DNA of 64,000 bases from a virus. Below the pieces are notes generated by a model. It saw nothing but the letters and a program-made list of their open reading frames with translations. It was not told the DNA's origin and made no database searches. Of the stretch, positions 1 to 21,189 are shown piece by piece. Position 1 is the first letter of the stretch; the number at the start of each line of letters is the position of its first letter. The translations under genes were made by a program, and so were the position numbers. The DNA lies in the IMG/VR virus record IMGVR_UViG_3300042465_007929, positions 1-64,000 of that record; one strand, written 5' to 3'.

Positions 1-151
1 CAATAACTTCAGCTAAAGTTGTGCAGACGATTTTCACATCTGCCCAATCATCTTCGCCCTTTTTGCCGCTGACTTTTACTGCGTAACCATTGTCATAACG
101 GTAAATATTAAGTTCTTCGTTTACTTTTTTTAGTTTATTTGCTATTTTCAT
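1..151 (-). CDS. Hypothetical protein, C-terminus outside the window
   Basis: The gene starts with an ATG at 151 and runs off the left edge, so only about 50 N-terminal residues are visible. They begin MKIANKLKKVNEELN and include a lysine/glycine-rich stretch followed by DDWADVKIVCTTLAEVI. No domain is recognised. It follows the next minus-strand gene after only 4 nt, as is usual in this packed early-gene operon. Confidence 0.7.
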   Translation of the reverse strand, partial: MKIANKLKKVNEELNIYRYDNGYAVKVSGKKGEDDWADVKIVCTTLAEVI

Positions 152-155
152 ATTT

Positions 156-392
156 TTAATTAAATAGATTTTTTATTGGATTGTGAAAATTATATTCAGC
201 GCGAGTTCTAAGTATTTCTTTGAAGAGTTCAGAATCTTCTACTTCGTCAAGGGTATCCATATTGACAACTAGAGTATCTTTAATTCTTTGTTTGTTATCA
301 AGATAATCATGGATGCCATATGTTTTACCATCCATGCTGGTTAATTCATATTCAACAGCATCTTCATTGTAAGTCGTTAGTTCAATATTCAT
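156..392 (-). CDS. Small acidic hypothetical protein (78 aa)
   Basis: The 78-aa product is rich in Asp and Glu, with no membrane segment and no recognised motif. Its ATG overlaps the end of the 30-codon metallophosphoesterase remnant at 382-474 by 11 nt, so it may be translationally coupled to that remnant. Before the nearby endonuclease arrived, this gene probably lay directly downstream of the intact metallophosphoesterase gene. Confidence 0.65.
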   Translation of the reverse strand: MNIELTTYNEDAVEYELTSMDGKTYGIHDYLDNKQRIKDTLVVNMDTLDEVEDSELFKEILRTRAEYNFHNPIKNLFN

Positions 393-474
393 TTTTATGT
401 TCTACGATTTCTAGTTCGGCAAGTATTCTAGCACGACATCCATCAAAGTCAAGAATTATTTTGGCACTTTTCAT
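382..474 (-). pseudogene. Stranded copy of the metallophosphoesterase 3' end (30 codons)
   Basis: This short reading frame encodes FDGCRARILAELEIVEH near its end. The C-terminus of the metallophosphoesterase at 1199-1888 reads FNGCRARILGELEIIEH, which matches at 14 of 17 positions. The two copies flank the homing endonuclease at 496-1215. I infer that this is the original 3' end of the gene, displaced when the endonuclease arrived with a replacement 3' end. It has its own ATG at 474 and overlaps the following gene by 11 nt, so a 30-aa peptide could still be made. Confidence 0.7.
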
Positions 475-495
475 TTTTATTGTGTAAAATATAGG

Positions 496-1215
496 GTGAA
501 CTCATTAAATTCAAAAATTCAAAAAGATTATTCTCATTTAGACCATAAATACGGTTATGTTCCAAATTTTGATAAAACTCAAAGTTATGCATTAGGTTTA
601 TTATGGGCTGATGGATGGCTTACTAAACCAATTTGTAGATCTAGAAATCTTGCTATAGAAGTTTTAGAATCTGATTTTATTGATTTTGAAGAGTCATTAA
701 GTTCTTTAGGAAAAGTAACTGTTCGCAAAAGACATAGAAATGGAAGAAATCCTCAAGCTGGAGCTTTAATTACCAATAAAAATTTATGTGAATGGCTTTT
801 TGAAATAGGATTTAAAGATAAATCAATTATTTCTCCCAATAAATTAATGAGTTTTATTCCTGAAAAATGCAAAAAACATTTCATAAGAGGTTGGGTTGAT
901 GGCGATGGGTGTTTTTATGTTCATGAAAAAAATAATACATTTCAATTTATTATAGCAGGTTCTTACGAACAAGATTGGTCATCTTTTATAGAAATATTAA
1001 ACACATTAAAAATAAAATATACTTATAAACAAAAAACTCAAATCCAAAATGACAGAGCTAATAAATGTTCTATAATAAGAATTACAGGTTTAAAAAATTT
1101 AAAAGTTTTTATTGATTATATTTATGATGATGCAGATTTTTTTCTAAAAAGAAAATATCAAAAAGCATTAATAATTAAAAATAGAGAATTAAAATTTATT
1201 AAGAATGCTCAATAA
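496..1215 (+). CDS. LAGLIDADG homing endonuclease
   Basis: The 239-aa product carries two LAGLIDADG-type motifs: ALGLLWADGWL near residues 32-42, and FIRGWVDGDGCFYV near residues 128-141, each with the metal-binding Asp. This is the single-chain, two-motif layout of LAGLIDADG_3 enzymes, which cut long target sites and drive their own spread. The start is a GTG, as no ATG lies upstream in frame. It is one of few plus-strand genes here, opposes its neighbours, and its last 17 nt overlap antisense the 3' end of the metallophosphoesterase gene. Diverged copies of that 3' end lie on both sides, pointing to insertion with restoration of the target. Confidence 0.88.
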   Translation: MNSLNSKIQKDYSHLDHKYGYVPNFDKTQSYALGLLWADGWLTKPICRSRNLAIEVLESDFIDFEESLSSLGKVTVRKRHRNGRNPQAGALITNKNLCEWLFEIGFKDKSIISPNKLMSFIPEKCKKHFIRGWVDGDGCFYVHEKNNTFQFIIAGSYEQDWSSFIEILNTLKIKYTYKQKTQIQNDRANKCSIIRITGLKNLKVFIDYIYDDADFFLKRKYQKALIIKNRELKFIKNAQ

Positions 1216-1888
1216 TTTCCAACTCACCTAAAATTCTAGCTCTGCACCCATTAAATTCAGCAGAATAGTGACTATGGAAATGGCCGAGATACGCTTTTTT
1301 TGGTCTTGCCAACTTATAAAGAGCAGTAAGATCATCTCTTTCTTTTATGCAATCACGCCAAAGATATTCGTCTCTATCGCACCAGCCAAGAATTCCTTGC
1401 TTGTCAACAGGGCCAATCCAAATTGGTGCGGAATGAGTGATGAGAACATCACATTCAACAATAAAATCAGGCTTCAAAACAAAAATCTCATCTTCCCAGT
1501 AAGAAATATTTGGTTTTCTTATCTTACGATCAATAGAAATTGCTCCGCCAACAAACAAAAACTTTTTATCGTTTATAAATTCAACGTGATAATCAGGAAT
1601 TAATCGTAGATTAGAAAAAGTTTGAATTTCTTTGTTAAAAAAAGATGGCGCATCATGATTGCCCCTAATAGAAAGGAATTGAATATCACGTTTAACAAAA
1701 AACTCATTAGCAATTTCAAGAGAACGGATTTCTTTTGAATGACTGTCCTTAAATCCAACCCCTAGATCTCCTACGCAAATGAGATAACAATCTTTAATCT
1801 CGTAATTTTTAATTCGAGTAAATAATTCTTCCCATTTGCCGTGGACATCCCCAAGAATATAGACTGGTTTATTCAAGAAATTCTGCAT
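1199..1888 (-). CDS. Calcineurin-like metallophosphoesterase
   Basis: The 229-aa protein shows the metallophosphoesterase metal-ligand motifs in order: GDVHG (13-17), GDLGVG (about 41-46), RGNHD (about 75-79), THSAP (about 151-155) and GHFH (about 202-205). It should bind two metal ions and cleave phosphoesters; the substrate (nucleotide, RNA end or protein) cannot be told from sequence. It overlaps the upstream lipoprotein gene by 20 nt. Its last 17 or so residues are duplicated at 382-474, beyond the homing endonuclease, so the present 3' end is probably a replacement. Confidence 0.9.
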   Translation of the reverse strand: MQNFLNKPVYILGDVHGKWEELFTRIKNYEIKDCYLICVGDLGVGFKDSHSKEIRSLEIANEFFVKRDIQFLSIRGNHDAPSFFNKEIQTFSNLRLIPDYHVEFINDKKFLFVGGAISIDRKIRKPNISYWEDEIFVLKPDFIVECDVLITHSAPIWIGPVDKQGILGWCDRDEYLWRDCIKERDDLTALYKLARPKKAYLGHFHSHYSAEFNGCRARILGELEIIEHS

Positions 1889-2264
1889 AATGTACTACGT
1901 TTTTTGAGCGACCTCTTTGTGTTTCTGCAAGTTTAGCGATAGTTAATGGATCATTGATGTATGCGCGAGTGCGATAGCTTCCCATGCTATCATATACCCA
2001 CAATTGATTTTTACCAATTGGATACATAAACGCAACAATAGCATGGCCTTTAGGTTTGCTGTCTACAGCATCGATATAACCATAGACTACTACTTTACTC
2101 CATTTGCATTTGCTGGCCTTCAGACCCTCTTTAAAGGCTATTGCGGTGGGTAAGCAATTATTAGCGCCTTGCCATTCCATCCATTTTTGTGGATTTTGTG
2201 GCATAGATGAACATGACGCATGTATAAGAGCAACCAATACTATTAGTAGTTTTTTCATTATCAT
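1869..2264 (-). CDS. Lipoprotein candidate with papain/transglutaminase-like Cys-His-Asp pattern
   Basis: The product starts with a lysine pair and a hydrophobic segment ending IHASCSS, a signal peptide with an imperfect lipobox. The mature part has Cys in NNCLPTA, His in GHAIVAF and Asp in VYDSMG, spaced like the triad of papain-fold cysteine peptidases or transglutaminase-like enzymes. This is a pattern match only. The ATG at 2264 is preferred because it overlaps the upstream stop in an ATGA; an ATG at 2258 is equally usable. It may act in the periplasm. Confidence 0.65.
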   Translation of the reverse strand: MIMKKLLIVLVALIHASCSSMPQNPQKWMEWQGANNCLPTAIAFKEGLKASKCKWSKVVVYGYIDAVDSKPKGHAIVAFMYPIGKNQLWVYDSMGSYRTRAYINDPLTIAKLAETQRGRSKNVVHYAEFLE

Positions 2265-2821
2265 GTCCAAAGATATTTGCGATGCTTGATAATAATATTC
2301 ATTGTAAGAGTATCCATATCTTCTATCTGTTTATTGATGCGTATATTTTCGGCGTATGCTTCCTGAAATGACATACCATAACGCTCTTCACAAGAGAGCA
2401 TACGCCTATGACCACTATCATCTTCACATGGCACAAACCATTCCGCATGAGGCTTTAAGGGTTTAGGATGCGATTCATCCTCTTGCTTTTCTAGCTCAGG
2501 ACGTTCATTCTTAATATAGTGATAAGCTGTCCAGAGTTGATTTCTAACCTCGGAACGCTCATTCTTATATTCTTCGGTAATATACCCCTTTTCAAGATCA
2601 CCTGCATAAAGTTCGTCACTCCAGATGGAATCTAGCCCTTTATCAACTTCTACAAAATGAACTAAAATTTCAAATAAGACAATATCAATCAATCCATAAG
2701 CATCACAATAATGATTGCCTATTTTTTTGAATAGCCATTTATTTTTAGGAAAGAAATAGTCGCGGATATTCCATTTTAATTCGCGCCAAAAATAAGGATA
2801 GGTAAGTAATTTTAGTTTCAT
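2261..2821 (-). CDS. Hypothetical protein (186 aa)
   Basis: The product is soluble, Trp/Tyr-rich at its N-terminus and charged in the middle, including a Glu/Lys/Pro stretch (about 108-125). No catalytic motif is recognised. The context of small unknown genes suggests an early accessory role. Confidence 0.65.
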   Translation of the reverse strand: MKLKLLTYPYFWRELKWNIRDYFFPKNKWLFKKIGNHYCDAYGLIDIVLFEILVHFVEVDKGLDSIWSDELYAGDLEKGYITEEYKNERSEVRNQLWTAYHYIKNERPELEKQEDESHPKPLKPHAEWFVPCEDDSGHRRMLSCEERYGMSFQEAYAENIRINKQIEDMDTLTMNIIIKHRKYLWT

Positions 2822-2840: not shown

Positions 2841-3089
2841 TTAAATCTTTTTCTTTTTGATTATAGCGTCAATAGGTCGTAGAAAATTACAGTCATCACA
2901 CACGCATTCTTCATCAACTTTCTGCCCACCATAACCTTCTCGAATACTACGGAGCGCGGAATAAGCTGCGTCACGCTCGCGCTCCATCTTTCGGGCAAAT
3001 TCTAACATTTTAGAATAGTCACAAGCTGTACTGCTCCATAACTCCATAAGGCGATTATCTTCTTCGTCTGTCTCTGGTGTGTCACTCAT
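2841..3089 (-). CDS. Small phage protein with CxxC pair (82 aa)
   Basis: It begins MSDTPETDEEDN and continues with a helical FARKMERERDAAYSALRS segment, a pattern common in small phage early proteins. A C-terminal CVCDDCNF could bind zinc. The ATG overlaps the stop of the 21-codon ORF upstream (ATGA) and has GGAG just before it. Function unknown. Confidence 0.7.
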   Translation of the reverse strand: MSDTPETDEEDNRLMELWSSTACDYSKMLEFARKMERERDAAYSALRSIREGYGGQKVDEECVCDDCNFLRPIDAIIKKKKI

Positions 3090-3151
3090 TCTCCAAATAC
3101 GATTAAAAGGCTAATAATAACTAAAAGGGTAAAAAAGATTTCATGTGTCAT
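3086..3151 (-). CDS. Very small hydrophobic peptide (21 aa)
   Basis: The reading frame encodes MTHEIFFTLLVIISLLIVFG plus one Glu, a single predicted membrane helix. Its stop overlaps the next ATG by 4 nt and its start follows the upstream gene by 3 nt, the same packing as confirmed neighbours. This tight fit is the main reason for calling it; it could also be chance. Confidence 0.45.
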   Translation of the reverse strand: MTHEIFFTLLVIISLLIVFGE

Positions 3152-3154
3152 AGT

Positions 3155-3367
3155 TTAATGAATATGGATAGCTTCACAGTCAAATGGATTATCATTACGA
3201 TCAGCAACTTCATGCTTACCATAATACCATTCAGTATGAACGTCAAGTTTAATTTTTACATTCACAGCGTATTTAACTTCATCTACACCATCTTCATAAC
3301 CACTAACGACTACCATGAGTTCTGGATCATATGATTGCAGCTTTTCTATTAATTCTTTAACTTTCAT
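3155..3367 (-). CDS. Conserved-type phage hypothetical protein (70 aa)
   Basis: The N-terminus MKVKELIEKLQSYDPELMVVV is typical of a widespread family of small phage proteins of unknown function, followed by SGYEDGVDEVKY. No catalytic residues are evident. It overlaps the upstream gene by 4 nt (ATGA). Confidence 0.75.
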   Translation of the reverse strand: MKVKELIEKLQSYDPELMVVVSGYEDGVDEVKYAVNVKIKLDVHTEWYYGKHEVADRNDNPFDCEAIHIH

Positions 3368-4416
3368 AAATTAGCTTTGCAGTGTTCTTCATGGTGGTAA
3401 TCCCAATACTCCCCGCAGTCATCGCACTGCATCAAAGAATTTACTTTTCCATGAAATGCTTTATTGATTACTGCTTTATTGATTACTGCTTCTAAATCTT
3501 CAATTTTCATCTTGAGTTTAAGGTTCTCTTCGATTAGCAACTCAGGTTGATACTCATCATCAGACAATAAGCCCAATGCTTTTTGTGCAATCAACCTGCA
3601 AGTTTCAGACTTTCGCGGTCGTTTAATAATCTCTTCAAGAGATTCTTTGTAAGATAAACAGTCAAGAATCCATAAGCCTACACTTTGATGTTTATCGCCT
3701 TCTTGATGCAGACATCTTAGATATTCTTGCCCATCTTGTGTGCTTTTAAATAGTCTACTTTTAACTTTTAATGCTTCAAGTTCTGCACGAAGAACCTGAG
3801 TTTCTCCACTGCCTAAGTTGTTCTTAAACAAAACATCTAGCATCTGAATAGCAGAAAGATGTTTGTTGGCTGCAAGTCCAGAGTAGTATTCGTAATGAGT
3901 CTTAATTGCCTTCTCAAGCGATTCCAAGTCTTCTCTATCTGCCCAAGCTTCAATCTTAGCCTTATCAGCTATACCAATTAATAGAGCGGTATTGTCAAGG
4001 ATGTAACCAGCACTAGGATGATCAAAGAAGTTGGGCATTGATTGAGAAATCAATTCATTGGCTTCATCTTGATTACTTTCTAGCAGAGCATTTTCTCTAA
4101 CATAATACTTAACACGTTCAGGAATGTTCTCATATGAATGAGAAGTGACATTGCCTACAGGAAGTTCAAAGAGAGTTTTATCGAGAATGTCTCTTTGTAT
4201 TTTGGAAACATCGGTCTCAGTCTCAAGTTCCTTTCGAAGCTTAAAGATTTCGTTTTGATACCAAAGGCAGTCTTGTTGGTATTGTTCGATAGTTTTTGTC
4301 ATAGTAGATTTTGTCATACTAGATTCATCATAAGCATCATACTTTTCAAAGCAGGTCATACATGTATCATATACTTCAGTAAAAAGTGTCTGGGTGCAAT
4401 GTTTACAGCGTTTCAT
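3364..4416 (-). CDS. Hypothetical protein with N- and C-terminal zinc-binding cysteines (350 aa)
   Basis: I place the start at 4416 (MKRCKHCTQTLF) because a good ribosome-binding site, AGGAG, precedes it and it leaves a short 14-nt overlap with the upstream gene. The N-terminus has CKHC and CMTC pairs, the C-terminus a CDDCGEYW pair plus His/Cys, suggesting two small zinc knuckles. The middle is helical with coiled-coil character. It resembles phage proteins built from common early-gene pieces; no function assigned. Confidence 0.6.
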   Translation of the reverse strand: MKRCKHCTQTLFTEVYDTCMTCFEKYDAYDESSMTKSTMTKTIEQYQQDCLWYQNEIFKLRKELETETDVSKIQRDILDKTLFELPVGNVTSHSYENIPERVKYYVRENALLESNQDEANELISQSMPNFFDHPSAGYILDNTALLIGIADKAKIEAWADREDLESLEKAIKTHYEYYSGLAANKHLSAIQMLDVLFKNNLGSGETQVLRAELEALKVKSRLFKSTQDGQEYLRCLHQEGDKHQSVGLWILDCLSYKESLEEIIKRPRKSETCRLIAQKALGLLSDDEYQPELLIEENLKLKMKIEDLEAVINKAVINKAFHGKVNSLMQCDDCGEYWDYHHEEHCKANL

Positions 4417-4750
4417 ATTCTTCTCCTTCACTTGGGGTACGATATATTTTATCAATTCTTTCAAGATTATCAAGGATTGTTTTTTGATCCATAGAGATAT
4501 TTCTGGCAATGTATATTTCACTACAGATTTGATTAAGCAAGAAGAGTCTTTCTTCTTGCGTATACTCATGAATCATTTTGGGCTTCAGCGGGAAGTCTGA
4601 TGTGAATTTTTTCTTTTTTAATTCTCTTTCTGGATCAGAATCTACTCGCATATTGCATTTATTGCAAGTGACTTTCCCATCCCAATCGTCGTAAATAGAA
4701 AGCTCCTGAAATTTACCACCACATTTGCATTTTTTATTCTTCATAGTCAT
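4403..4750 (-). CDS. Zinc-ribbon hypothetical protein (115 aa)
   Basis: The N-terminus carries CKCGGKF and CNKCN pairs about 20 residues apart, a zinc-ribbon pattern. The rest is helical with charged residues. Two possible ATGs lie two codons apart. It could bind nucleic acid, but nothing in the sequence specifies a target. Confidence 0.65.
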   Translation of the reverse strand: MTMKNKKCKCGGKFQELSIYDDWDGKVTCNKCNMRVDSDPERELKKKKFTSDFPLKPKMIHEYTQEERLFLLNQICSEIYIARNISMDQKTILDNLERIDKIYRTPSEGEEYETL

Positions 4751-10384: not shown

Positions 10385-11281
10385 ATGTCAATAGATCTTG
10401 GAAATACCCCAGTAGGAACACCGCCGAATCCAACACAGCAAGAACAAATTCGTCTGGCGTTGGACGCTATTACTGATGCTCCTAGTGATGGTGAAAAGTA
10501 TGTGATGCAGGATGGACAATGGGTCTATCTGACTCCTCCGCCAAACAGAGCATATGACATTGATAACATTGTTCTTTTTGAAGAAGCAAGTGACATTATT
10601 CCAAATAATTGGACGAATACTAATCCCGTAGCAGTCGCTAGTGTTGACTTTAAATCAACTCTGACCAGTATCGGAGATGAGGCGTTCTATAGCTGCTCTG
10701 CCCTGACGAGCGTGACGATCCCTAACAGCGTGACCAGCATCGGGGATGATGTGTTCAATAGCTGCTCTGGTTTGACGAGCTTAACCATCGGCAACGGCGT
10801 AACAACTATTGGTAGTGTAAATACAGCATATTCTGGTGCGTTCTATTTATGCACAAGCCTAACGAGCGTGACGATTCCTGACAGCGTCACAAGTCTCGGT
10901 AGTTATTCATTTTATGGCTGTTACGATTTAGTAAGCGTCGTGCTTGGAAATGGATTGACAACTATTAACAACGGTACGTTCCAGTACTGCTCCAGTCTGA
11001 CGAGCATCACGATCCCCAACAGCGTCACCAGCATAGGCAATTATGCGTTCCAAGCCTGCACTGTCTTGACGAGCGTGACGATCCCCAACAGCGTAACTAG
11101 CATCGGACTAAATGCGTTTGCATACAGCGGCCTAACAAGTATCTCTTGCTTGGCAACTACCGCACCAACAATCGGAACTGATGCTTTTTTAAATGTTCTG
11201 GCAACTGAGATTCACGTTCCATTTGGAGCCACTGGATACGGCACAACATATGGTGGCTTGACAGTAATTGCTAATCTTTAA
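10385..11281 (+). CDS. BspA-type leucine-rich-repeat protein, copy 1
   Basis: The 298-aa product has an N-terminal module (about 1-50, starting MSIDLGNTPVGTPP) shared with the next two genes. A DxxxxIIPNNWT linker follows, then 23-residue LRR_5 repeats of the type LTSVTIPNSVTSIGDYAF. A conserved C-terminal cap contains TEIHVPFGATGYGTTYGGLT. No signal peptide or membrane segment is present, so it fits a virion-attached binding protein better than a secreted one. The repeat region looks richer in G+C than the flanks. Function is inferred as host-surface or polymer binding. Confidence 0.8.
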   Translation: MSIDLGNTPVGTPPNPTQQEQIRLALDAITDAPSDGEKYVMQDGQWVYLTPPPNRAYDIDNIVLFEEASDIIPNNWTNTNPVAVASVDFKSTLTSIGDEAFYSCSALTSVTIPNSVTSIGDDVFNSCSGLTSLTIGNGVTTIGSVNTAYSGAFYLCTSLTSVTIPDSVTSLGSYSFYGCYDLVSVVLGNGLTTINNGTFQYCSSLTSITIPNSVTSIGNYAFQACTVLTSVTIPNSVTSIGLNAFAYSGLTSISCLATTAPTIGTDAFLNVLATEIHVPFGATGYGTTYGGLTVIANL

Positions 11282-11310
11282 CACATACAACAATTTTTAA
11301 TTAATTTATT

Positions 11311-12252
11311 ATGGCAATCGATTTAGGAAATACTCCAATAGGAACACCACCCACAACAGGACAAAAGCAACAGATGCGTCAAGCTCTAGTTGCAGTTGGT
11401 AATGCTCCTATTGATGATGAAAAGTATGTTATGTTAGATGGAGAATGGGTCTTCTTGATTCCTAATCAGGCATATGATATTAATAATGTTGTTCTTGTAG
11501 AAGAAACTAGTAATATAATTCCCGACAGTTGGACCAGTGATTATGCTGCTGATGTTACTAGTATACGTTTAATTCCTACATTAACAAGCATCGGAAGTTA
11601 TGCGTTTCAGTCCTGCATTGGCCTGACAAGCGTGACCCTTCCAAACAGCCTTACCAGCATCGGGAGTAATGCGTTCAACTACTGCATCAGCCTGACGAGC
11701 ATAACGATCCCCAATAGCGTCACTAGCATCGGGAGTGATGCGTTTAGTTACTGCGGTCTAACAAGTATCACTGTACCCGCTAGCGTAACTAGCATTGGGA
11801 GTACAGCGTTTGGATACAACCCCAGCCTAACAAGCGCAATTATTAATAATGGCGTTCCATATATTTCCGACGAAATGTTCGGAGGTTGTGGTAACTTAAC
11901 GAGTGTCACTATACCCAACAGCGTCACCTACATCGGAGATTATTCGTTCGGAGGCTGTGGTAGCTTGACGAGTGTGACGATACCAGCCAGTGTAACTATT
12001 CTCAGGTCACAGGCGTTCAAAAGCTGCACTGGCCTGACGAGCGTGACGATCCCTAACAGCGTCACTAGCATCGGACTAGATGCGTTCCAAAACTGCGCCA
12101 GTCTAAGCAGTATCTCTTGCTTGGCAACTACCGCACCAACAATCGGAACTGATGCTTTCTTTGGCGTTTTGGCAACTGAGATTCATGTCCCAATTGGAGC
12201 CACTGGATATGGAACAACGTATGGAGGACTAACAGTCATCGCAGATCTTTGA
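11311..12252 (+). CDS. BspA-type leucine-rich-repeat protein, copy 2
   Basis: The 313-aa product has the same three-part plan as its neighbours: shared N-terminal module (MAIDLGNTPIGTPP), LRR_5 repeats of about 23 residues, and the C-terminal cap. Repeat number and some repeat sequences differ from copy 1, including a non-consensus unit around ISDEMFGGCGNLTS. It is a tandem duplicate that has diverged by repeat gain, loss or exchange. Confidence 0.8.
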   Translation: MAIDLGNTPIGTPPTTGQKQQMRQALVAVGNAPIDDEKYVMLDGEWVFLIPNQAYDINNVVLVEETSNIIPDSWTSDYAADVTSIRLIPTLTSIGSYAFQSCIGLTSVTLPNSLTSIGSNAFNYCISLTSITIPNSVTSIGSDAFSYCGLTSITVPASVTSIGSTAFGYNPSLTSAIINNGVPYISDEMFGGCGNLTSVTIPNSVTYIGDYSFGGCGSLTSVTIPASVTILRSQAFKSCTGLTSVTIPNSVTSIGLDAFQNCASLSSISCLATTAPTIGTDAFFGVLATEIHVPIGATGYGTTYGGLTVIADL

Positions 12253-12283
12253 CGCACATAACAATTTTTAACTTATACTTATC

Positions 12284-13624
12284 ATGGCAATCGATTTAGG
12301 AAATACACCAGTAGGAACACCACCTACATTAGGACAGCAGCAGCAAATACGCGACGCGACTGGCATGATTACTTTTCCGCAAAATGACGGTAAGAAATAT
12401 GTTCGTCTAAATGAAGAATGGGTTCTATTGGCTGTTTATGCGGAGAGTACAGTCTATGACTCAGGCGATGCGGTTGTTTTCACGGAAGCAAGCAATGCTA
12501 TTCCAGATGCTTGGACGTTTAGTGATCGTGAGGCAGTCGCTAGTGTTGACTTTAAATCAACTCTGACCAGCATCGGGAATAATGCGTTCAACTACTGCTC
12601 TGGCCTGACGAGCATTACAATTCCTAATAGCGTGACCAGTCTCGGAGAGGGAGCGTTCTGGGGCTGCTCTGGCTTGACGAGTGTGACGATCCCTAATAGC
12701 GTGACCAGCCTTGGGAGTAGAGCGTTCTATGACTGTGGTGGCCTGACGAGTGTGACGATTGGCAGCGGCGTTACAACGATTAGCAGTAGTGCGTTTGGTT
12801 ACTGCGGCCTAACGAGCCTAACTATCCCCAACAGTGTCACTAGCATCGCGTATGGGGCGTTCTACAGTTGCACTTCCCTGACGAGCGTGACGATCCCGAA
12901 CAGCGTCACTAGCATCGGCGATTATGCATTCTATCGATGCTCTAGCCTGACGAGCGTGACAATCCCCGACAGCGTCACCAGCATCGGGAGTTATGCGTTC
13001 TATGCTTGCTCTGCCCTAACCAGCGTAACAATTCCTAGCAGCGTTACAACGATTGGCAGTAATGCGTTTGGTTACTGCAATAGCCTGACAAACGTGACCA
13101 TCGGTAGCGGCGTTACCAACATCGGGAGTTATTCATTCTATAATTGTGTTAGTCTAACTGCAATCACGGTTAGTTCACTTAATCTTATATATTCAAGTGT
13201 AGATGGAGTTTTATTCGACAAGGATCAAATTACTCTACTTCAATATCCAGAAGGCAACCCCGAATTAACATATTCTATACCCAATAGTGTCATAATTTTA
13301 GAAGGCAATGCTTTCGCTAATTGCCATAACCTGACGAGCGTGATAATTCCCAATAGCGTCACCACCATCGAGACTGCCGCGTTCTTCAACGCCTCTAGCC
13401 TGACAAGCGTGACGATTGGTAGCGGCGTGACCAGCATCGGGGGTCAGGCGTTCTATGGATGCACTAGTCTAAACTATATCGCTTGTTTGGCAACTAACGC
13501 TCCAACAATCCCAATCGACGATGGTGTTTTCGGCAATATTCTGGCAACTGAGATTCATGTTCCAATTGGAGCTACTGGATATGGTACAATTTATGGTGGA
13601 TTAAATGTAGTTCAGGACATATAA
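12284..13624 (+). CDS. BspA-type leucine-rich-repeat protein, copy 3 (longest)
   Basis: The 446-aa product keeps the shared N-terminal module and the C-terminal cap, with more LRR_5 units than copies 1 and 2. One interruption near residues 295-330 (SSVDGVLFDKDQITLLQYP) is the typical BspA insertion seen in bacterial and protist LRR_5 surface proteins. The gene lies 10 nt before the sulfotransferase gene, so the cluster may be one transcript. Confidence 0.8.
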   Translation: MAIDLGNTPVGTPPTLGQQQQIRDATGMITFPQNDGKKYVRLNEEWVLLAVYAESTVYDSGDAVVFTEASNAIPDAWTFSDREAVASVDFKSTLTSIGNNAFNYCSGLTSITIPNSVTSLGEGAFWGCSGLTSVTIPNSVTSLGSRAFYDCGGLTSVTIGSGVTTISSSAFGYCGLTSLTIPNSVTSIAYGAFYSCTSLTSVTIPNSVTSIGDYAFYRCSSLTSVTIPDSVTSIGSYAFYACSALTSVTIPSSVTTIGSNAFGYCNSLTNVTIGSGVTNIGSYSFYNCVSLTAITVSSLNLIYSSVDGVLFDKDQITLLQYPEGNPELTYSIPNSVIILEGNAFANCHNLTSVIIPNSVTTIETAAFFNASSLTSVTIGSGVTSIGGQAFYGCTSLNYIACLATNAPTIPIDDGVFGNILATEIHVPIGATGYGTIYGGLNVVQDI

Positions 13625-13633: not shown

Positions 13634-14431
13634 ATGAATAAAAAAATACATTTTGTTAGCGGTCTTCCTCGTGCGTGTTCTACATTAGTCTGCAATCTTC
13701 TGGCTCAAAATCCAGAAGTTCATGCCACAGCGACTAGTCCTCTTCATGAGATTGGATATATCGCTAGAAAGGTATTCCAGACTGAAGAAGCTAAAGCAAT
13801 CGGCGGCAAGACTTTAGAGAAGATGTATTTTGATTATGTTCGCGGAGGTTGTTCTCACGCATTTGATTCGCTCACTGATCGTCCAATCGTCGCAGATAAA
13901 TGTCGTTCTTATATCGGTCATCTAGATCAACTATTTCAGATTTGGCCAGACGCAAAAGTAATCGTACCAGTGCGAGATGTGAGAGGTATCATTTGCTCCA
14001 TGGAAAAGATTCGCCGCAAACATCCTTCTCCGTTTAATGGCTTCGAAGAAGCAAACCCAGCGAACTTTACGACTATCGAGAAGCGAGTTCAAGGTTGGTT
14101 ATCTTCAGCCCCAGTCGGTATCGCCATCGAAAGACTTCATGAGGCAGTTACTCGCTTCAAAGATCGTTTACATTTTGTGAATGCCGATAAACTTACAGCA
14201 TCGCCTGATAAGGAAATGGCTAAAGTTTGGAGCTACTTAGGTCTAAACTTTAATGATCATGATTTCGAAAACGTCGAGCAATATACTGAAGAATATGATG
14301 TAGGATGGCCATATGGCGACCACAATATCAGATCAACTATTCGCCCACTTGAATTAGACTACAACGAAATTCTAGGAAAACAACTATCAACAACACTCAA
14401 AGAGAAATTTAACTGGATCAACACACTATGA
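13634..14431 (+). CDS. Sulfotransferase-family protein
   Basis: The 265-aa protein has the two PAPS-binding signatures of sulfotransferases: a 5'-phosphosulfate loop, SGLPRACSTLV (about 9-19), and a 3'-phosphate motif, VPVRDVRGIICSMEKI (about 114-129). It should move sulfate from PAPS to a hydroxyl or amine; phage members have no well-defined acceptor. It lies between the LRR genes and another plus-strand gene with 4-nt overlap. Together with the glycosyltransferases elsewhere here, it suggests modification of surface glycans or of a virion protein. Confidence 0.82.
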   Translation: MNKKIHFVSGLPRACSTLVCNLLAQNPEVHATATSPLHEIGYIARKVFQTEEAKAIGGKTLEKMYFDYVRGGCSHAFDSLTDRPIVADKCRSYIGHLDQLFQIWPDAKVIVPVRDVRGIICSMEKIRRKHPSPFNGFEEANPANFTTIEKRVQGWLSSAPVGIAIERLHEAVTRFKDRLHFVNADKLTASPDKEMAKVWSYLGLNFNDHDFENVEQYTEEYDVGWPYGDHNIRSTIRPLELDYNEILGKQLSTTLKEKFNWINTL

Positions 14432-14938: not shown

Positions 14939-15595
14939 TCAGAGCAAGGTATAAGATTTGATGAAAATTATACATTTTTCAAGAAAAATCGGAAAATCAT
15001 TTCTTTTTTTATGATTTAAATCTTTAGATGAAATTCTCATTATATTCCAACCATTTTTTATTAAATTTGAATCTCTAATAGTATCTTTTGTTTTATCATG
15101 CCATTTTATACCATCATATTCTATATTTATTTTGTAATCTGGTAAAGCTATATCCAGATAAATATTATCGACTTTATATTCTTGTTGTAATTCTGGAAAT
15201 GTTTTCTTTAATTCTTCAAATAAGACATTTTGCCAATAAGATTTTTTGCCAGCACATTTTCTATTTGGATGCTTTTCAGGATTTAATTTAAAAAATTCTT
15301 TTTTTGATAAAGACATTTTTAATTTACTTTCATCGCTTCTTTTTGAACCAAGATTTTTTAAAGATAAAGATTTTTTTCTTTCAAGAGTCCAACCTTCTTT
15401 AAGTTTTTGCTTTCTATCTTCAGTACAAGGCAAAGTTTTTTTACCTTTCATTGGAGATATTCTGCCAGTTGCTTTTTGACTTCTTATCAAATTGATTTCT
15501 TCAGTCCAAATTCTTGAATTAGCGCAAGATCTGGAACAAAAAACACCACTACCAAATGTTCCATCATGATCTATATTACATTTTTTGCATTGCAT
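14939..15595 (-). CDS. Homing endonuclease, zinc finger plus VSR/EDxHD-like nuclease (218 aa)
   Basis: The N-terminus has a short treble-clef-like finger (CKKCN and CSRSCANS). A basic linker with repeated KK/SLK elements follows, then a nuclease-like C-terminus with DIALPDYKINIEYDGIKWH, NLIKNGWNIMRIS and a Lys/Arg tail. This is the layout of VSR-like PD-(D/E)XK or EDxHD phage homing endonucleases. It lies at the edge of the tRNA array, between the sulfotransferase cluster and tRNA-Gly. A related enzyme sits at 16580-17284. Confidence 0.7.
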   Translation of the reverse strand: MQCKKCNIDHDGTFGSGVFCSRSCANSRIWTEEINLIRSQKATGRISPMKGKKTLPCTEDRKQKLKEGWTLERKKSLSLKNLGSKRSDESKLKMSLSKKEFFKLNPEKHPNRKCAGKKSYWQNVLFEELKKTFPELQQEYKVDNIYLDIALPDYKINIEYDGIKWHDKTKDTIRDSNLIKNGWNIMRISSKDLNHKKRNDFPIFLEKCIIFIKSYTLL

Positions 15596-15637
15596 ATAAT
15601 TATTTACACAATCGAACTAACTTTATGAATTAAAAAA

Positions 15638-15712
15638 TGGTGCGTTATGTGGTAGTCGAAACCACGCTACTAGAGTGGAAGTCTAGTGTGCTACCGTAAC
15701 ACTTATAACGCA
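15638..15712 (-). tRNA. tRNA-Gly, anticodon TCC
   Basis: Acceptor TGCGTTA pairs with TAACGCA, the anticodon loop is CTTCCAC and the T-arm has GTGGT/ACCAC around TTCGACT. The CCA end is encoded. It reads GGA and probably GGG. Confidence 0.9.
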
Positions 15713-15716
15713 AAAT

Positions 15717-15785
15717 TGGTGGATGTTGGGGAATTGAACCCCGTCCGCAATAGTAAACTATTACGTCGAATCCCTATGGACACCC
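15717..15785 (-). ncRNA. Minimal tmRNA-like RNA: tRNA-like domain without a message domain
   Basis: The 69-nt RNA carries the two signatures of bacterial tmRNA: GGATTCGACG near the 5' end (15764-15773) and GGACGGGGTTCAATTCCCC leading to the 3' end. The acceptor begins GGGTGT and ends ACATCC-A-CCA. It keeps G1-C72, G2-C71 and a G3-U70 wobble, the identity element for alanyl-tRNA synthetase, with discriminator A and encoded CCA. It has no D-stem, as in tmRNA. Where tmRNA has helix 2 and roughly 300 nt of tag frame and pseudoknots, this RNA has only a hairpin (CGTAATAGT with ACTATTGCG). It follows a protein gene's stop by 1 nt and precedes tRNA-Gly. Confidence 0.65.
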
Positions 15786-15786
15786 A

Positions 15787-16254
15787 TTAATTTTCTTTAT
15801 TGAACATTACATAATTATGTACTGAAACAATGTAATCTTCTGCAACTGCAAGTTTTCCTTGCATCCATGTTTCTGTAAGATTATTTTGAACTTTTGAATC
15901 ATTTAAAGAATTTAAAATCGCATCACTATGCGATTTAATTGAAGCAAGTGATGAAATAGCCATGCCATAAAGATCTTTCTTAGTTTCAAGCAACTCATCT
16001 TCTGCACTTTCATCTTCCATCTCTGGCGCATTAAGATCAACTTCTTGAGCTTTACTAGTCACAAAATCAAGAAACTCATCATCTCCAGAGCCAACAACTA
16101 CATCAGCAGAAGCCTTGGCTTCATCATACTGAGTATAGCAAATTGCAATACGTTGTTGGTTCTCCTTGAACTTAGGATCTTTTGCAACTTCAGAAATACA
16201 ACGACTAACGAAGTCTTTCTTTTTCTCTTTTTTGCGCGGCTTTGGTAAAGGCAT
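15787..16254 (-). CDS. Phage hypothetical protein starting MPLPKPR (155 aa)
   Basis: The N-terminus MPLPKPRKKEKKKDFVSRC, followed by a KFKENQQRIAICYTQYDEAK segment, is a recurring phage pattern. In other phages such segments occur near head-maturation or portal-associated genes, but here it lies in the tRNA region. The C-terminal half is helical and acidic. Its stop is 1 nt from the 5' end of the tmRNA-like gene. Confidence 0.65.
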   Translation of the reverse strand: MPLPKPRKKEKKKDFVSRCISEVAKDPKFKENQQRIAICYTQYDEAKASADVVVGSGDDEFLDFVTSKAQEVDLNAPEMEDESAEDELLETKKDLYGMAISSLASIKSHSDAILNSLNDSKVQNNLTETWMQGKLAVAEDYIVSVHNYVMFNKEN

Positions 16255-16262
16255 AATGTTAT

Positions 16263-16517
16263 TTACACTTTATTGTTTAAAAAATTCAAAATGGTCTGTA
16301 AAGCAATCTCTTGATGATTTGCAGTTCTGATAGCAACATCTTCAGACCATGAATGAGAACCATGATAAATCTTCTTTCTCATCAAAACATTAGTATTCAA
16401 ACAAACAAAATCTTCATCCTCCCAACGAAGGACACTTTTTAAGTATTGAATAGTAATTTTACGTTGATTTTCAAAATCAATTTCGATTTCTTTAGGAACT
16501 GAGACTGTGATTTTCAT
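16263..16517 (-). CDS. Small hypothetical protein (84 aa)
   Basis: The product begins MKITVSVPKEIEIDFENQRK and continues with a basic, aromatic central part and a C-terminal helix. It resembles small phage proteins of unknown function and sits 8 nt upstream of the MPLPKPR gene, probably in the same operon. Confidence 0.65.
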   Translation of the reverse strand: MKITVSVPKEIEIDFENQRKITIQYLKSVLRWEDEDFVCLNTNVLMRKKIYHGSHSWSEDVAIRTANHQEIALQTILNFLNNKV

Positions 16518-16579
16518 GATAAAAAAGATGGCGGGTGATATAAGAATAGAAAAATACTATTTAAGTGTAATGATACTAT

Positions 16580-17284
16580 ATGAATGTATTATACACTGAG
16601 CTAGATTTTTCTCAAGCTAAATTAAGTGATAAATTAAAATTAAAGTGTTTAACGTGTAATGGTATTTTTTTAAAAAAGAAAAAATATATTATAGATATAA
16701 TAAATCGAGGAGGTCATTTTACTAAAGCTGGAACTGGAGATTTTTGCTCTCATAAATGCTCTTCTTTTTCAAAAGTAAAAGCAAAAGAATGTTCTTGTGT
16801 GAATTGTAATAAATCTTTTATTAAAAAACAAAGTCAAATTAAAAAAACTTCAAATCATTTCTGTTCTAGTTCTTGTGCCGCTTCTTATAATAATAAGAAT
16901 AAAACTCATGGAACTAGAAGATCTAAATTAGAAACTTGGTTAGAAGAAAAACTTACTAATCTTTATCCAAATTTAGAAATACATTTTAATCGTAAAGATA
17001 CAATTAATTCTGAATTAGACATTTATATACCATCTTTTAAATTGGCTGTAGAACTCAATGGAATTTTTCACTATGAACCAATACATGGGATAGAAAAATT
17101 AGAGAAAATACAAAATAATGATGAAAGAAAATTTCAAGCCTGTTTAGAACGAGGTATAGAATTTTGTATTATAGATACTTCTGGTCAAAAGTATTTTAAA
17201 GAATCAACATCTCAGAAATTTTTAAATATTATCTGTGATATAATAAAATCAAAAGAAATGAAGGCGGTGTCAGATTCGAACTGA
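16580..17284 (+). CDS. Homing endonuclease, multiple zinc fingers plus VSR-like nuclease (234 aa)
   Basis: Residues about 20-110 hold paired CxxC/CxxxC fingers (CLTCNGIF, CSHKCSS, CVNCNKSF, CSSSCAAS). The C-terminal part has ELDIYIPSFKLAVELNGIFH then ERKFQACLERGIEFCIID, matching the VSR/EDxHD-type nuclease plan seen in the enzyme at 14939-15595. It is the only plus-strand gene among minus-strand tRNAs. Its final codons (MKAVSDSN, stop) read into the 3' end of the tRNA-Ser gene on the other strand, showing insertion right at the tRNA. Confidence 0.72.
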   Translation: MNVLYTELDFSQAKLSDKLKLKCLTCNGIFLKKKKYIIDIINRGGHFTKAGTGDFCSHKCSSFSKVKAKECSCVNCNKSFIKKQSQIKKTSNHFCSSSCAASYNNKNKTHGTRRSKLETWLEEKLTNLYPNLEIHFNRKDTINSELDIYIPSFKLAVELNGIFHYEPIHGIEKLEKIQNNDERKFQACLERGIEFCIIDTSGQKYFKESTSQKFLNIICDIIKSKEMKAVSDSN

Positions 17285-17348
17285 CGGAAGGCTCGTCACC
17301 TTCTCTACTTTTCAAGAGTAGCGCATTAAACCGCTCTGCCAACCGCCC
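17262..17348 (-). tRNA. tRNA-Ser, anticodon TGA
   Basis: The anticodon loop CTTGAAA sits on CTACT/AGTAG. There is a long variable arm (GAAGG...CCTTC), and the T-arm is GTCAG/CTGAC around TTCGAAT. Acceptor GGGCGGT pairs with ACCGCCT; no CCA is encoded. The endonuclease gene at 16580-17284 ends within its 3' half, so the acceptor end may have been rebuilt by that insertion. Confidence 0.85.
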
Positions 17349-17357
17349 ATTTATATA

Positions 17358-17483
17358 TTATCCTTGTCCGCGATACTTTTTTCTATAATTTTTTGATTGT
17401 TTTAGATGAGAAGTCTTGCTTTTAGCATGAATTCCCGGACGCTTCTTGGACTTTACTCCGTTTTTTTGGTTCTTCTTGTTCAT
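17358..17483 (-). CDS. Very basic small phage protein (41 aa)
   Basis: The product is almost all Lys, Arg, Asn and Ser, with KSKKRPGIHAKSKTSHLK in the middle and YRKKYRGQG at the end. Closely similar basic mini-proteins occur in many phages, so I consider it real despite its size. It probably binds nucleic acid. It lies between tRNA-Ile and tRNA-Ser. Confidence 0.75.
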   Translation of the reverse strand: MNKKNQKNGVKSKKRPGIHAKSKTSHLKQSKNYRKKYRGQG

Positions 17484-17505
17484 TTATTTATGTTTAATTA
17501 GAAAT

Positions 17506-17580
17506 TGGTAGTCCGTCTGGGTTTCGATCCCAGTCTCTCTCACTTATAAGGCAAGTGCATTCCCATCCTGCTCACGGACA
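17506..17580 (-). tRNA. tRNA-Ile, anticodon TAT
   Basis: The anticodon loop CTTATAA closes on CTTGC/GTGAG, the T-arm is CTGGG/CCCAG around ATCGAAA, and CCA is encoded. It would read AUA, a codon common in this AT-rich genome. Confidence 0.85.
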
Positions 17581-17598
17581 TTTATATGATATAAAAAA

Positions 17599-17671
17599 TA
17601 GGGACGGAGGGAGTTGAACCCTCTATCTAAGGTTTATGAGACCCCCGCATTAACCGTTCTGCTACATCCCT
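17599..17671 (-). tRNA. tRNA with anticodon CAT (Met, or Ile if lysidine-modified)
   Basis: Acceptor AGGGATG pairs with CGTCCCT, the anticodon loop is CTCATAA and the T-arm is GAGGG/CCCTC around TTCAACT. No CCA is encoded. Sequence alone does not separate elongator Met from lysidine-modified Ile. Confidence 0.85.
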
Positions 17672-17676
17672 GAAAA

Positions 17677-17761
17677 TGGTACGAGTAGTCGGACTTGAAC
17701 CGACAAACCTTGCGGCGACAGATTTTAAGTCTGTAGTGTTTACCAATTTCACCATACTCGC
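17677..17761 (-). tRNA. tRNA-Leu, anticodon TAA
   Basis: The anticodon loop CTTAAAA sits on ACAGA/TCTGT. It has a long variable arm, T-arm GTCGG/CCGAC and an encoded CCA. It reads UUA, the most AT-rich Leu codon. Confidence 0.9.
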
Positions 17762-17795
17762 TTTTTGTCTCACTAACTTACTCAGTGATGTTTTT

Positions 17796-17824
17796 ATCTT
17801 ACTGTTAGTTGGCGGGATTGTCAA
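17796..17824 (-). promoter_or_regulatory. Sigma70-type promoter for tRNA operon (proximal)
   Basis: On the minus strand, TTGACA (17819-17824) and TAAGAT (17796-17801) are spaced by 17 bp. It lies just upstream of tRNA-Leu. Confidence 0.7.
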
Positions 17825-17881
17825 CTAGTTTTTTTATTTTCTTTTTTCCTCTTTGTCAGTGATTGTCTCGCTGATGTCCTT

Positions 17882-17909
17882 ATTATACAGGAATTTGTTG
17901 CTTGGTCAA
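17882..17909 (-). promoter_or_regulatory. Sigma70-type promoter for tRNA operon (distal)
   Basis: On the minus strand, TTGACC (17904-17909) and a perfect TATAAT (17882-17887) are spaced by 16 bp. It forms a tandem pair with the promoter at 17796-17824 and should drive the tRNA genes below. Confidence 0.72.
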
Positions 17910-17983
17910 GCAGTTTTTCATAAAAAATCAAAATAAATGTATTTGGTGTAATATTATGCAGAAAACAATAAAAACCCATAAAA

Positions 17984-19306
17984 ATGTCTTCCCCTGAATA
18001 TACTTTTAATCATCTTGGCCAATTATCTCATACTGCGGCAACAATGCCTTGCATATATGATCGTACAAATGATGTGTATAGACCTATAGAAAAAAGTGAT
18101 TTAAGTTTCACTAATTCAGAAGCGCCAACTAATTTTGATGCTTTTGGAAGAATGAGGGTTTGTGAACCATTAACTCTTTTTGAAAGTCAACACAGATATA
18201 GTGATAACGGAAAATGGAATAATCTAATTAGTGGCACTGCTGCAAGTAATTATTTAATAAATGAAAGCTCTGTTCAATTAACCGCTTCAAATGGTGGTTC
18301 AATCACAAGAGAAAGTAATTTAGTTTTCAATTATCAAGCTGGTAAAAGCTTATTGATAATGAGTAGCTTTGCATTTAGCGCATCAACTGTTGGTGTTGAA
18401 CAACGTATAGGATATTTTAATGCATCAAATGGAATTTATCTTTTACAAGATGGACACACAGATGGTGCTGCATTTGTTTTAAGAAGTTATGCTTCTGGCT
18501 CCGTAGTTGAAAGAACGATTCGCCAAAAAGATTGGAATTTTGATAAATTTGATGGAAATGGTGGTTCTGGCCGTGTATTGGATTTGACTAAAGCTAATAT
18601 ATTTTGGATGGACATAGAATGGTTGGGCGTAGGTGCAGTTCGTTGCGGTTTCGTTGTCGATGGAAAATTAATATTGGGTCATATATTTTATAATGATAAT
18701 CGCAATAATACTGTTTATATGACAACCGCAATTTTACCATTAAGGTATTCTTTGTCTAATTCAACAGCTACTAGTCCATTTATCAAACAAATATGTAATA
18801 CAGTAATTAGTGAAGGCGGACATAATCCTGAGTCAATTACATATAATCAAGAATCATCACCAATAACTATTCAACGTACTACATCGTCAGCCGCTGGAGA
18901 TAAAGGAAAATCATATAATGCTATTTCAATACGTTTGACATCTGGAAAATTAGATGGGATAATTATACCTAATGGAATTTCTTTATTAAGTGATAGCGCA
19001 AAATTATATCAATGGTCATTAATTAAAAATGCAACATTTGTTACATCACCAACTTGGCTGGATCATTCTGCATGTATAACTACTCAATATACAGTTACTG
19101 ATTCACAAGTCACTGGAGGTGTGATTGTCAAAGCTGGATATATTACAAATGCTTCCGATTCTTTAGTTTTGAGTGATTTTGGAAGTACTCATTTGCAATT
19201 AGGAAGAACGCTAAGTGGGGTATCTGATACATATACTTTTGCTATAGCATCAGATGCTACTAGCGCAAAATTTAATGCAATTTTAAGTTGGTATCAAATA
19301 ATTTAA
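17984..19306 (+). CDS. Phage virion structural protein (marine-phage type)
   Basis: The 440-aa product matches a family I know from many marine T4-like and other phages. Characteristic stretches include NFDAFGRMRVCEPLTLFESQ, NGKWNN, YQAGKSLLIMSSF, IFWMDIEWLGVGAVRCGFV and QICNTVISEGG. These proteins are annotated as virion or decoration proteins of unknown exact location. It is an isolated plus-strand gene among minus-strand tRNA operons and ends at a strong terminator (19383-19414), so it is its own transcription unit. Confidence 0.8.
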   Translation: MSSPEYTFNHLGQLSHTAATMPCIYDRTNDVYRPIEKSDLSFTNSEAPTNFDAFGRMRVCEPLTLFESQHRYSDNGKWNNLISGTAASNYLINESSVQLTASNGGSITRESNLVFNYQAGKSLLIMSSFAFSASTVGVEQRIGYFNASNGIYLLQDGHTDGAAFVLRSYASGSVVERTIRQKDWNFDKFDGNGGSGRVLDLTKANIFWMDIEWLGVGAVRCGFVVDGKLILGHIFYNDNRNNTVYMTTAILPLRYSLSNSTATSPFIKQICNTVISEGGHNPESITYNQESSPITIQRTTSSAAGDKGKSYNAISIRLTSGKLDGIIIPNGISLLSDSAKLYQWSLIKNATFVTSPTWLDHSACITTQYTVTDSQVTGGVIVKAGYITNASDSLVLSDFGSTHLQLGRTLSGVSDTYTFAIASDATSAKFNAILSWYQII

Positions 19307-19382
19307 ATTTTTAGTGTAATAACATATGATTCCGTGCGGTGCGGTTTTCAATCTTATCTTTTTGTATTTATTAGTCATAAAG

Positions 19383-19414
19383 AAAAAGCCTACCTTGAAA
19401 AAGGTAGGCTTTTT
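19383..19414. terminator. Bidirectional intrinsic terminator
   Basis: AAAAAGCCTACC and GGTAGGCTTTTT form a long stem with an 8-nt loop and T-tracts on both strands. It ends the virion-protein transcript on the plus strand and the tRNA-Thr/tRNA-Asn transcript on the minus strand. Confidence 0.88.
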
Positions 19415-19422
19415 TAATAAGA

Positions 19423-19497
19423 TGGAGCATCTTGTCCGATTCGAACGGACGACCTGCTCATTACAAATGAGCTGCACTACCACTGTGCTAAAGATGC
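19423..19497 (-). tRNA. tRNA-Thr, anticodon TGT
   Basis: Acceptor GCATCTT pairs with AAGATGC, the anticodon loop is TTTGTAA on GCTCA/TGAGC and CCA is encoded. It reads ACA. Confidence 0.92.
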
Positions 19498-19505
19498 ATA
19501 AAAAT

Positions 19506-19580
19506 TGGCTCCAAAGGTAGGGATCGAACCTACGACCTAGAAATTAACAGTTTCTCGCACTTCCGCTGTGCTACTTTGGA
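19506..19580 (-). tRNA. tRNA-Asn, anticodon GTT
   Basis: Acceptor TCCAAAG pairs with CTTTGGA, the anticodon loop is CTGTTAA on AGAAA/TTTCT, the discriminator is G and CCA is encoded. Confidence 0.93.
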
Positions 19581-19587
19581 TTTTTAT

Positions 19588-19821
19588 TTATAAAATTTCT
19601 GGATTATTGGAATTTCTTTTATTTCTTTGGATAGCTTTTCCAAGCTTTATAATCTCATTAATCACTTCTGGTGAAAAAGAATCTAAGCTGTTCTTTTGTC
19701 TTCTTTGAATGGCTTTTTCAGCTCTGCATTGCTTGCATCTATAATTTCCATTTCGTCCTAAAACAAAATCTTGCTCTCCGTGTTTTTCGCAAATCTGTTT
19801 AATAATTTTTGGTTGTTCCAT
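19588..19821 (-). CDS. Zinc-knuckle protein, probable N-terminal remnant of an HNH endonuclease (77 aa)
   Basis: The N-terminus has CEKHGEQDFVLGRNGNYRCK with CxxC, followed by KAIQRRQK. This is the zinc-binding start of phage HNH endonucleases that normally continue into a CxxC...HxxH nuclease core. Here the core is absent and the protein ends in a charged helix. It is either a truncated endonuclease or a small DNA-binding protein derived from one. It sits between tRNA-Asn and the giant RNA region. Confidence 0.6.
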   Translation of the reverse strand: MEQPKIIKQICEKHGEQDFVLGRNGNYRCKQCRAEKAIQRRQKNSLDSFSPEVINEIIKLGKAIQRNKRNSNNPEIL

Positions 19822-20293
19822 ACTATTATATACACACCAACTAAATTAATTAATTTTATTAAAAACAAAAAAAAAGCTAATCTATCGCTGAAGAAGTCCT
19901 CCATATCCACAGAGGTTAATGATCCTTCTTCACTTTTCTACAAATACTAACTCGCTGGAAATTTCCTGTCTGTTTTTTCTGAATACTTCGGGCGATCAAA
20001 CGCACGATAGAAATTGGATTTGCGGCTCAGGTCGCTATCACTCACAATGATTGACATTAAAGTCAGCTATATAAGATTGCTCCTTGTGAAAACGTCTTGG
20101 TTCACGATGACCCCTCAATGACCGCAAAAGTATTTATCTGTCAGACCTTTTACTAAAATATGCCCCTCGCGCATATATGACATCTTCGCTGGTTCACGGA
20201 TGGGCCACTTTGTAGCGATTCACATCGCCTCAGACGGATTCCCAGCATAGGTCTTCATAGCCGTATGTAGATATTCTCGACAGATAAAAAATG

Positions 20294-20402
20294 TAGAAGA
20301 AACTGGATTCGAACCAATATTGTATCATATTGCCTAAGCAATCAAGGAATCAAACCTTGTCGAACAACTGCCGTTGTTGCATTTCCATTATGCTATTCTT
20401 CT
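20294..20402 (-). tRNA. tRNA-like element with expanded, anticodon-less centre
   Basis: The ends look like a tRNA: acceptor AGAAGAA/TTCTTCT, D-arm GCAT...ATGC with a GG loop, T-arm ATTGG/CCAGT around TTCGAAT. Total length is 109 nt instead of about 75. In place of one anticodon arm there are three hairpins: AACAAC/GTTGTT, CAAGG/CCTTG (loop TTTGATT, itself T-arm-like) and ATTGC/GCAAT. No normal 7-nt anticodon loop can be assigned, and CCA is not encoded. It lies within the giant RNA region and is probably structural rather than a decoding tRNA. Confidence 0.5.
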
Positions 20403-20560
20403 GAAAGTTGTGCAGTACTCTCCTGCTGTCACACCCATAATCCATAGTTGCGACCTATAAGATCTAGCTGATGTTTCTAAAATTTAGAATGACTGAGATG
20501 TCTAATCTAGGACTCTCAAATAGCGGTCTTCATTAAAGATATGCCCTCAGCCATTCAGTT

Positions 20561-20597
20561 GTCCATAGGGTGTGCATCCCATCGCCTCAAGCAGGAC
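20561..20597 (-). repeat. Giant-RNA hairpin module, copy 3
   Basis: GTCC...GGAC encloses TGCTTGAGGCGA and an inner hairpin closed by GGG/CCC. The conserved outer text is GCCAGTCCTGCTTGA and TATGGAC, shared with the copies at 20728-20765 and 20801-20836. Confidence 0.65.
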
Positions 20598-20765: not shown

Positions 20766-20800
20766 TGGCACTAGCTAATGGTTAGCCCACATTAGTCAGG

Positions 20801-21178: not shown

Positions 21179-21189
21179 TAAAAATTGAT

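Follow-up and report, generated by a model that had tools for sequence, protein, structure and literature searches.

Probable replacement of a phage metallophosphoesterase gene end by a free-standing LAGLIDADG homing endonuclease gene

Why should the last codons of a phage gene occur twice, once in place and once stranded on the far side of an endonuclease gene? This question arose from a 64,000-nt stretch of viral DNA (hereafter, the window), which comprises positions 1 to 64,000 of the 139990-base IMG/VR virus record IMGVR_UViG_3300042465_007929, a record that encodes phage polymerase, helicase, tail, and head proteins. Here, about the last 18 codons of a metallophosphoesterase (MPE) gene are present on both sides of a LAGLIDADG homing endonuclease gene (HEG), intact within the MPE gene and stranded beyond the HEG (Table 1). 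A first-pass annotation had proposed that the HEG carries a replacement 3' end for its target gene.

Table 1. Features of the MPE locus, with positions in the window.
Feature	Position	Strand	Remarks
Downstream gene, unknown function	156..392	-	78 aa; ORF; 5 of the 45 searched records of relatives have a distant homolog
Stranded, probably native MPE 3' end, inside ORF 382-474	382..453	-	DNA kinship of core
Junction between stranded end and HEG start	454..495	.	no MPE similarity upstream of duplicated core
LAGLIDADG HEG	496..1215	+	239 aa; two motifs, LLWADGW and RGWVDGDG
Probable replacement MPE 3' end, about codons 187-229 and stop	1199..1330	-	kinship shift vs L013, L018/L019
Intact MPE gene (calcineurin-like), the target gene	1199..1888	-	229 aa

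A minus-strand, operon-like run of genes (window 1-2300) terminates in the MPE gene, which matched Pfam Metallophos (2.1e-8) and phrog_1649 (1.5e-24). The HEG matched Pfam LAGLIDADG_3 (E 4.6e-6) and the endonuclease family phrog_4645 (3.4e-23). It converges on the MPE gene and, as first annotated, has its stop (1215, plus strand) antisense within the last 17 nt of that gene. The MPE ORF is uninterrupted, and a search of the window for group I introns (Intron_gpI, gathering score) found none. Without a splicing element, the endonuclease is not one borne by a group I intron or an intein. We infer that the gene now lying beyond the stranded end followed MPE before the insertion; a scan with this gene as query confirmed no homolog of it.

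The duplication was confirmed. The intact C-terminus (1205-1258, minus strand) reads EFNGCRARILGELEIIEH and the stranded one (397-450, minus strand) reads DFDGCRARILAELEIVEH, with 14 of 18 residues alike (14 of 17 counted from F) and a BLOSUM score of 80. At the DNA level, only 33 of 51 nt are alike. A 30-codon ORF closes with the stranded piece, and the stop codon of this ORF lies over the ATG of the downstream gene. It is the last 60 nt of the probable replacement tract that duplicate the stranded end. The 31 nt just beyond the duplicated core have no recognised similarity.

To place the two copies, we fetched 80 loci with related MPE genes (numbered with the prefix L) by alignment query, representing 60 distinct proteins, the window's included. 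Each of these loci has a single C-terminal end. None had a second copy of its own C-terminus (best score 33, versus 80 in the window), so uninterrupted relatives with two 3' ends, which would have refuted the initial proposal, were looked for and did not appear. The closest relative, L013 (75%), keeps the two genes upstream of MPE (84 and 87%), has one C-terminus, has no HEG adjoining MPE, and continues downstream with other genes. No exact empty site for the window was found, as even L013 is without the downstream gene. We also scanned IMG/VR with the MPE, HEG, and downstream-gene proteins, one at a time, and GTDB contigs with the HEG protein, and no match was confirmed. A degenerate DNA pattern for the C-terminus had no match.

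Kinship changes along the MPE gene itself. DNA identity to L013 was 73, 73, and 71% over successive parts of codons 1-186, then 47% over codons 187-210 and 63% over codons 211-229. Identity to L018/L019 rose from 53-62% before the break to 62-64 and 68% after it. Sites telling L013 from L019 divided 61:9 up to codon 185 versus 4:10 from codon 190 (Fisher 2e-5), with 0 of 401 permutations as extreme, or 2 of 401 when L018 was used. No significant break was present against L014, L017, or L069 (125, 95, and 168 of 401 permutations). We read this pattern as recombination near codon 187 in one lineage, but the break alone does not say which, and it may sit in L013 rather than in the window. It is consistent with co-conversion of flanks, where homing in a mixed infection is inferred. 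G+C content was 37.1% in the putatively imported tract versus 24.6% in the HEG, meaning that the tract is not AT-rich like the HEG, a point against the proposal.

The 3' ends of relatives were compared with each copy, a check suggested by the first-pass annotation. The stranded core matched L019 and L018 at 42 and 41 of 51 nt, and the intact core at 36 and 36. Over 59 relatives, the core DNA was nearer to the stranded copy in 31, nearer to the intact copy in 18, and equally near in 10. The comparison thus leans, weakly, toward the stranded copy being the native end in the window. For the window, we are less sure about the direction of replacement than at the sister locus described below, since its MPE relatives do not carry the downstream gene and none of them offered an exact empty site. 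In protein, both copies are of the L018/L019 type, and therefore the donor has not been identified.

The sister locus, L104, provided the clearer case. Its MPE gene (2987-3760, plus strand) has the C-terminal end DIDGCEFRLLGINEFYDPKIDYMNYLNKKYGD and is followed by a HEG (3806-4615, plus strand) that is 39% identical to the window's, beyond which lies the stranded copy NFEGTNFRLLGINEHYMYQNHNDYTPEWEKELK. The insertion occurred at the same MPE codon as in the window, with the duplicated part beginning about 5 residues after GHFH, before F/I-x-G, in both. Relative to MPE, the two HEGs have opposite orientations. Uninterrupted relatives L263 (75%), L264 (74%), and L267 (67%) scored 130, 115, and 115 against the stranded end and 56, 55, and 60 against the working end. 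L265/L266 were likewise nearer the stranded end (73 versus 32), and L268 (51%) did not discriminate (68 versus 66). Together, the stranded stretch and its terminator share 77% identity with L263's 3' end over 134 nt. Upstream flanking genes are kept in L263-L266, and a downstream DHFR gene is found in L264-L266 at varying distance. Since it is the stranded copy with its terminator, and not the working end, that resembles relatives without an insertion, this comparison shows directly that in L104/L105 the stranded end and terminator are original and the working gene's end is foreign. After the foreign end comes its own stem-loop, identified by eye, and the arrangement is identical in the separate contigs of L104 and L105.

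The model of the window's HEG (pLDDT 90.4) is ordered from about residue 21 to 230, and Foldseek returned bI3 maturase and I-AniI as the best matches (E down to 2.3e-10). The motif aspartates D39 and D135 were invariant in an alignment of 42 sequences. By motifs and predicted fold, the protein models as a two-motif LAGLIDADG monomer, with cleavage inferred. About 16 N-terminal and the last 10 or so residues are poorly ordered; as the latter are encoded over or next to the MPE end, the overlap of the two genes may cost little. The MPE model was confident nearly throughout (pLDDT 94.0) and places the last strands of the fold within the replaced stretch, so a truncation there would probably disrupt the protein.

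We consider it very probable that a free-standing LAGLIDADG HEG homed into the 3' end of a phage MPE gene, replacing the end and stranding the old one. The inferred enzyme activity would cut the HEG-free allele about 19 codons before the MPE stop, at a site we infer to be the [DE]-F-[DN]-G codons. Repair of the break from a donor, by an inferred route, would copy in the donor's gene end along with the HEG. The recipient would keep a complete, chimeric gene in which its own body is joined to a foreign end that is coded differently. This new end is presumably not cut by the enzyme, an inferred self-immunity that would follow from encoding a similar protein in different DNA. The old 3' end would be displaced to the far side of the HEG, surviving as an untranslated or leader scrap beside the start of the downstream gene. 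The initial proposal is thereby largely supported by the absence of a second C-terminus in relatives, the direction of replacement in L104/L105, and similar arrangements at other genes, with the reservations that direction is less certain in the window and cleavage is inferred.

To look for such arrangements, we ran two alignment scans for the HEG family, retaining the best 80 loci of each. These yielded 159 loci with 123 distinct HEG ORFs, or 124 with the window added, for which we compared translated flanks on the two sides of the HEG. With 250-nt flanks, a duplication score of at least 48 was reached by 11 of the 124 HEG ORFs among the matches listed, versus 0.64% of 2500 mismatched flank pairs. 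This cross-locus null is conservative because it includes some true homologs. Reading of individual cases added L106 (found with 900-nt flanks) and L141 and L142 (scores 43 and 44; further alleles of one site), and dropped L258. Among the matches listed, 13 of 124 distinct HEG ORFs were then accepted, the window included, at eight target sites. The targets are the window's MPE gene (duplicated 3' end), the MPE gene of another phage (L104, identical in L105), another calcineurin-like phosphoesterase gene (L106), a GMP reductase/IMPDH-like gene (L124/L125), the gene for a 293-aa protein (L143/L145), the 5' end of the gene for a 142-aa protein (L190/L191), the gene for the major capsid protein Gp23 (L242; the weakest, with 15 residues), and the 5' end of a DUF2201 gene (L120, L134, L141, L142, L154, and L167). 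In most accepted cases one of the copies touches or overlaps the HEG ORF at one of its ends. Two small genes separate the stranded copy from the HEG in L106, and neither copy touches the HEG ORF in L242.

A further point against the proposal is that duplication was not universal, given eight loci with HEGs adjoining MPE and no duplication detected. These comprise L069, L078, L135, L283, L302, and L323, where no N-terminal duplication was detected beside HEGs at the 5' side, and L275 and L279, where no C-terminal duplication was detected. Old scars may have decayed at such loci. Flanks of the other three endonuclease-like ORFs in the window showed no duplication. Several candidates were left out. 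At L258 (2300-4200), 111 nt are repeated at 76% on the two sides of the HEG ORF but are not a gene end; these are perhaps repeated intron cores, although they had no Rfam match. Matches at L127, L151, L140, L103, L174, L202, L238, L218, and L217 were due to chance or low complexity. Separately, related HEGs lie just 5' of the MPE genes in L069 (3269-3967), L078 (192-875), L283, L302, and L323, and the MPE gene looks like a hot spot for related endonuclease genes. L167 has a group I intron (1217-1642) near its DUF2201 gene, the one whose 5' end is duplicated around the endonuclease.

The main rival to replacement with rescue is homing that left a passive scar, whereby one-sided strand invasion upstream and illegitimate joining downstream would generate the duplication with no rescue function or immunity carried. 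It is mechanically sufficient for the anatomy, and both the unrecognised 31 nt beyond the core and the several HEGs beside MPE without a scar fit it. However, the layout recurs at eight target sites, and in the cases read the target gene is intact, which a passive scar does not readily explain. In addition, the stem-loop belonging to the foreign end of L104 suggests that this end arrived as a unit. We regard a passive scar as unlikely but still to be reckoned with. Considerably less credible is plain duplication, in which two MPE genes stood in tandem, the HEG landed between them or within the downstream copy, and that copy decayed until only its final codons were left. In its favor, only the end of a second copy is left, and translation of the gene beyond may rely on that DNA to start. 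Against this stand the 80 relatives lacking a second C-terminus, the core starting at the same MPE codon in L104, an independent case, and the duplicated gene ends that flank HEGs at other genes.

An artifact of assembly joining two strains at MPE seems the least plausible, and we give it hardly any weight. Its appeal is that the two ends of the record carry two strain variants of window 1-483. The record end (L002; 139274-139990) includes a third stranded copy, identical in DNA, at 139904-139960, and shares 114 identical nt up to base 483 of the window (counted by hand on the alignment). We rejected this third copy as a further insertion and read the record end as a variant of the record start: the two are probably the termini of one circular or permuted genome, with the assembly spanning a difference between two strains in the sample. 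Both variants nevertheless share the stranded end as well as the 31 nt that lie beyond it, and a like arrangement occurs in L104 and, identically, in the separate contig of L105. The record-end variant additionally has a 70-aa ORF and scattered substitutions.

Returning to replacement by homing, similar strategies exist in eukaryotes. Mobile ORFs (mORFs) of fungal mitochondria occur at atp6, atp9, cox2, and nad3 of Glomus and atp6 of Allomyces (PMC3630166). As in the phage case, an endonuclease, mostly LAGLIDADG, lies near a gene's 3' end, a foreign C-terminus is fused to the gene with the native one beyond the ORF, and the native end is nearer to relatives in DNA than is the foreign end (PMC3630166). 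A foreign end on the gene with the native end beyond it is clear in L104, while its direction only leans that way in the window. Unlike mORFs, which are mitochondrial and can share the strand and phase of the gene (PMC3630166), the window derives from a phage virus record and its ORF is antisense to the gene. The phage cases also affect 5' ends. WHO elements at yeast FBA1 sit beside, not inside, the host gene, and their homing likewise replaces the 3' end, makes a chimeric and resistant gene, and pushes the old end outward (PMC7282813). The phage locus matches in having a replaced 3' end and an old end kept outward as a fragment. However, WHO elements are nuclear, their cleavage and resistance were tested experimentally (PMC7282813) rather than inferred, and they have a zinc-finger domain (repeated Cys-X-X-Cys) after the endonuclease. 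No zinc finger was found in the window's HEG, where LAGLIDADG_3 was the only Pfam match and no CxxC was seen by eye in 239 residues.

Among phages, free-standing endonucleases of T4-like phages (intronless homing) also adjoin their presumed target gene and co-convert its flanks, but are of GIY-YIG or HNH types rather than LAGLIDADG (PMC2988022). The accessible text of that review of T4 mobile DNA contains neither 'duplicat' nor 'LAGLIDADG', and that of a study of phage nuclease genes at exchange boundaries does not describe a gene-end replacement layout (PMC10448857). By title and the start of the abstract, we recognised no phage description of such gene-end replacement in the one open library searched; subscription papers fell mostly outside this search, which is no proof of priority. 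Within these limits, the strategy is known from eukaryotes (mORFs and WHO), and what is new here is that it is phage-borne, has many targets, and involves both 3' and 5' ends.

Engineered home-and-rescue drives carry a recoded rescue. In these drives too, a nuclease homes into a needed gene that stays working, but they are synthetic, CRISPR-based, and operate in insects (PMC7968924, as far as accessible). We somewhat favor the broader interpretation that phage LAGLIDADG elements of a wide class spread in this way: they cut useful genes near either end and supply a recoded, uncuttable end, a natural cut-and-rescue at 3' or 5' ends that needs no intron or intein and rewrites gene ends across phages. 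If true, a homing strategy of fungal mitochondria and yeast nuclei would extend to phages, with replacement of 5' ends as an added form. Introns and inteins would then be joined by a third means through which an endonuclease can occupy a coding gene without killing it. The interpretation would also account for gene ends that are mosaic and for orphan scraps of genes in phages, and would offer natural models of cut-and-rescue drive that are testable in simple crosses.

Other features of the window were recorded in passing. In a megablast of window 1-25000 against phages, a tRNA stretch was the only match, and the DNA polymerase and a structural protein had only distant phage matches. A UvsX-like recombinase (60623-61771) had no tblastn match in 50,697 phage records. 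Three tandem genes at 10385-13624 share the start M[SA]IDLGNTP[VI]GTPP, the first having BspA-type leucine-rich repeats, and a sulfotransferase-like gene follows at 13634-14431. At 14939-22705, a cluster of tRNAs is interspersed with nuclease-like ORFs, and an HNH gene (21519-22082) runs into the end of thyX (22079-22705, minus strand).
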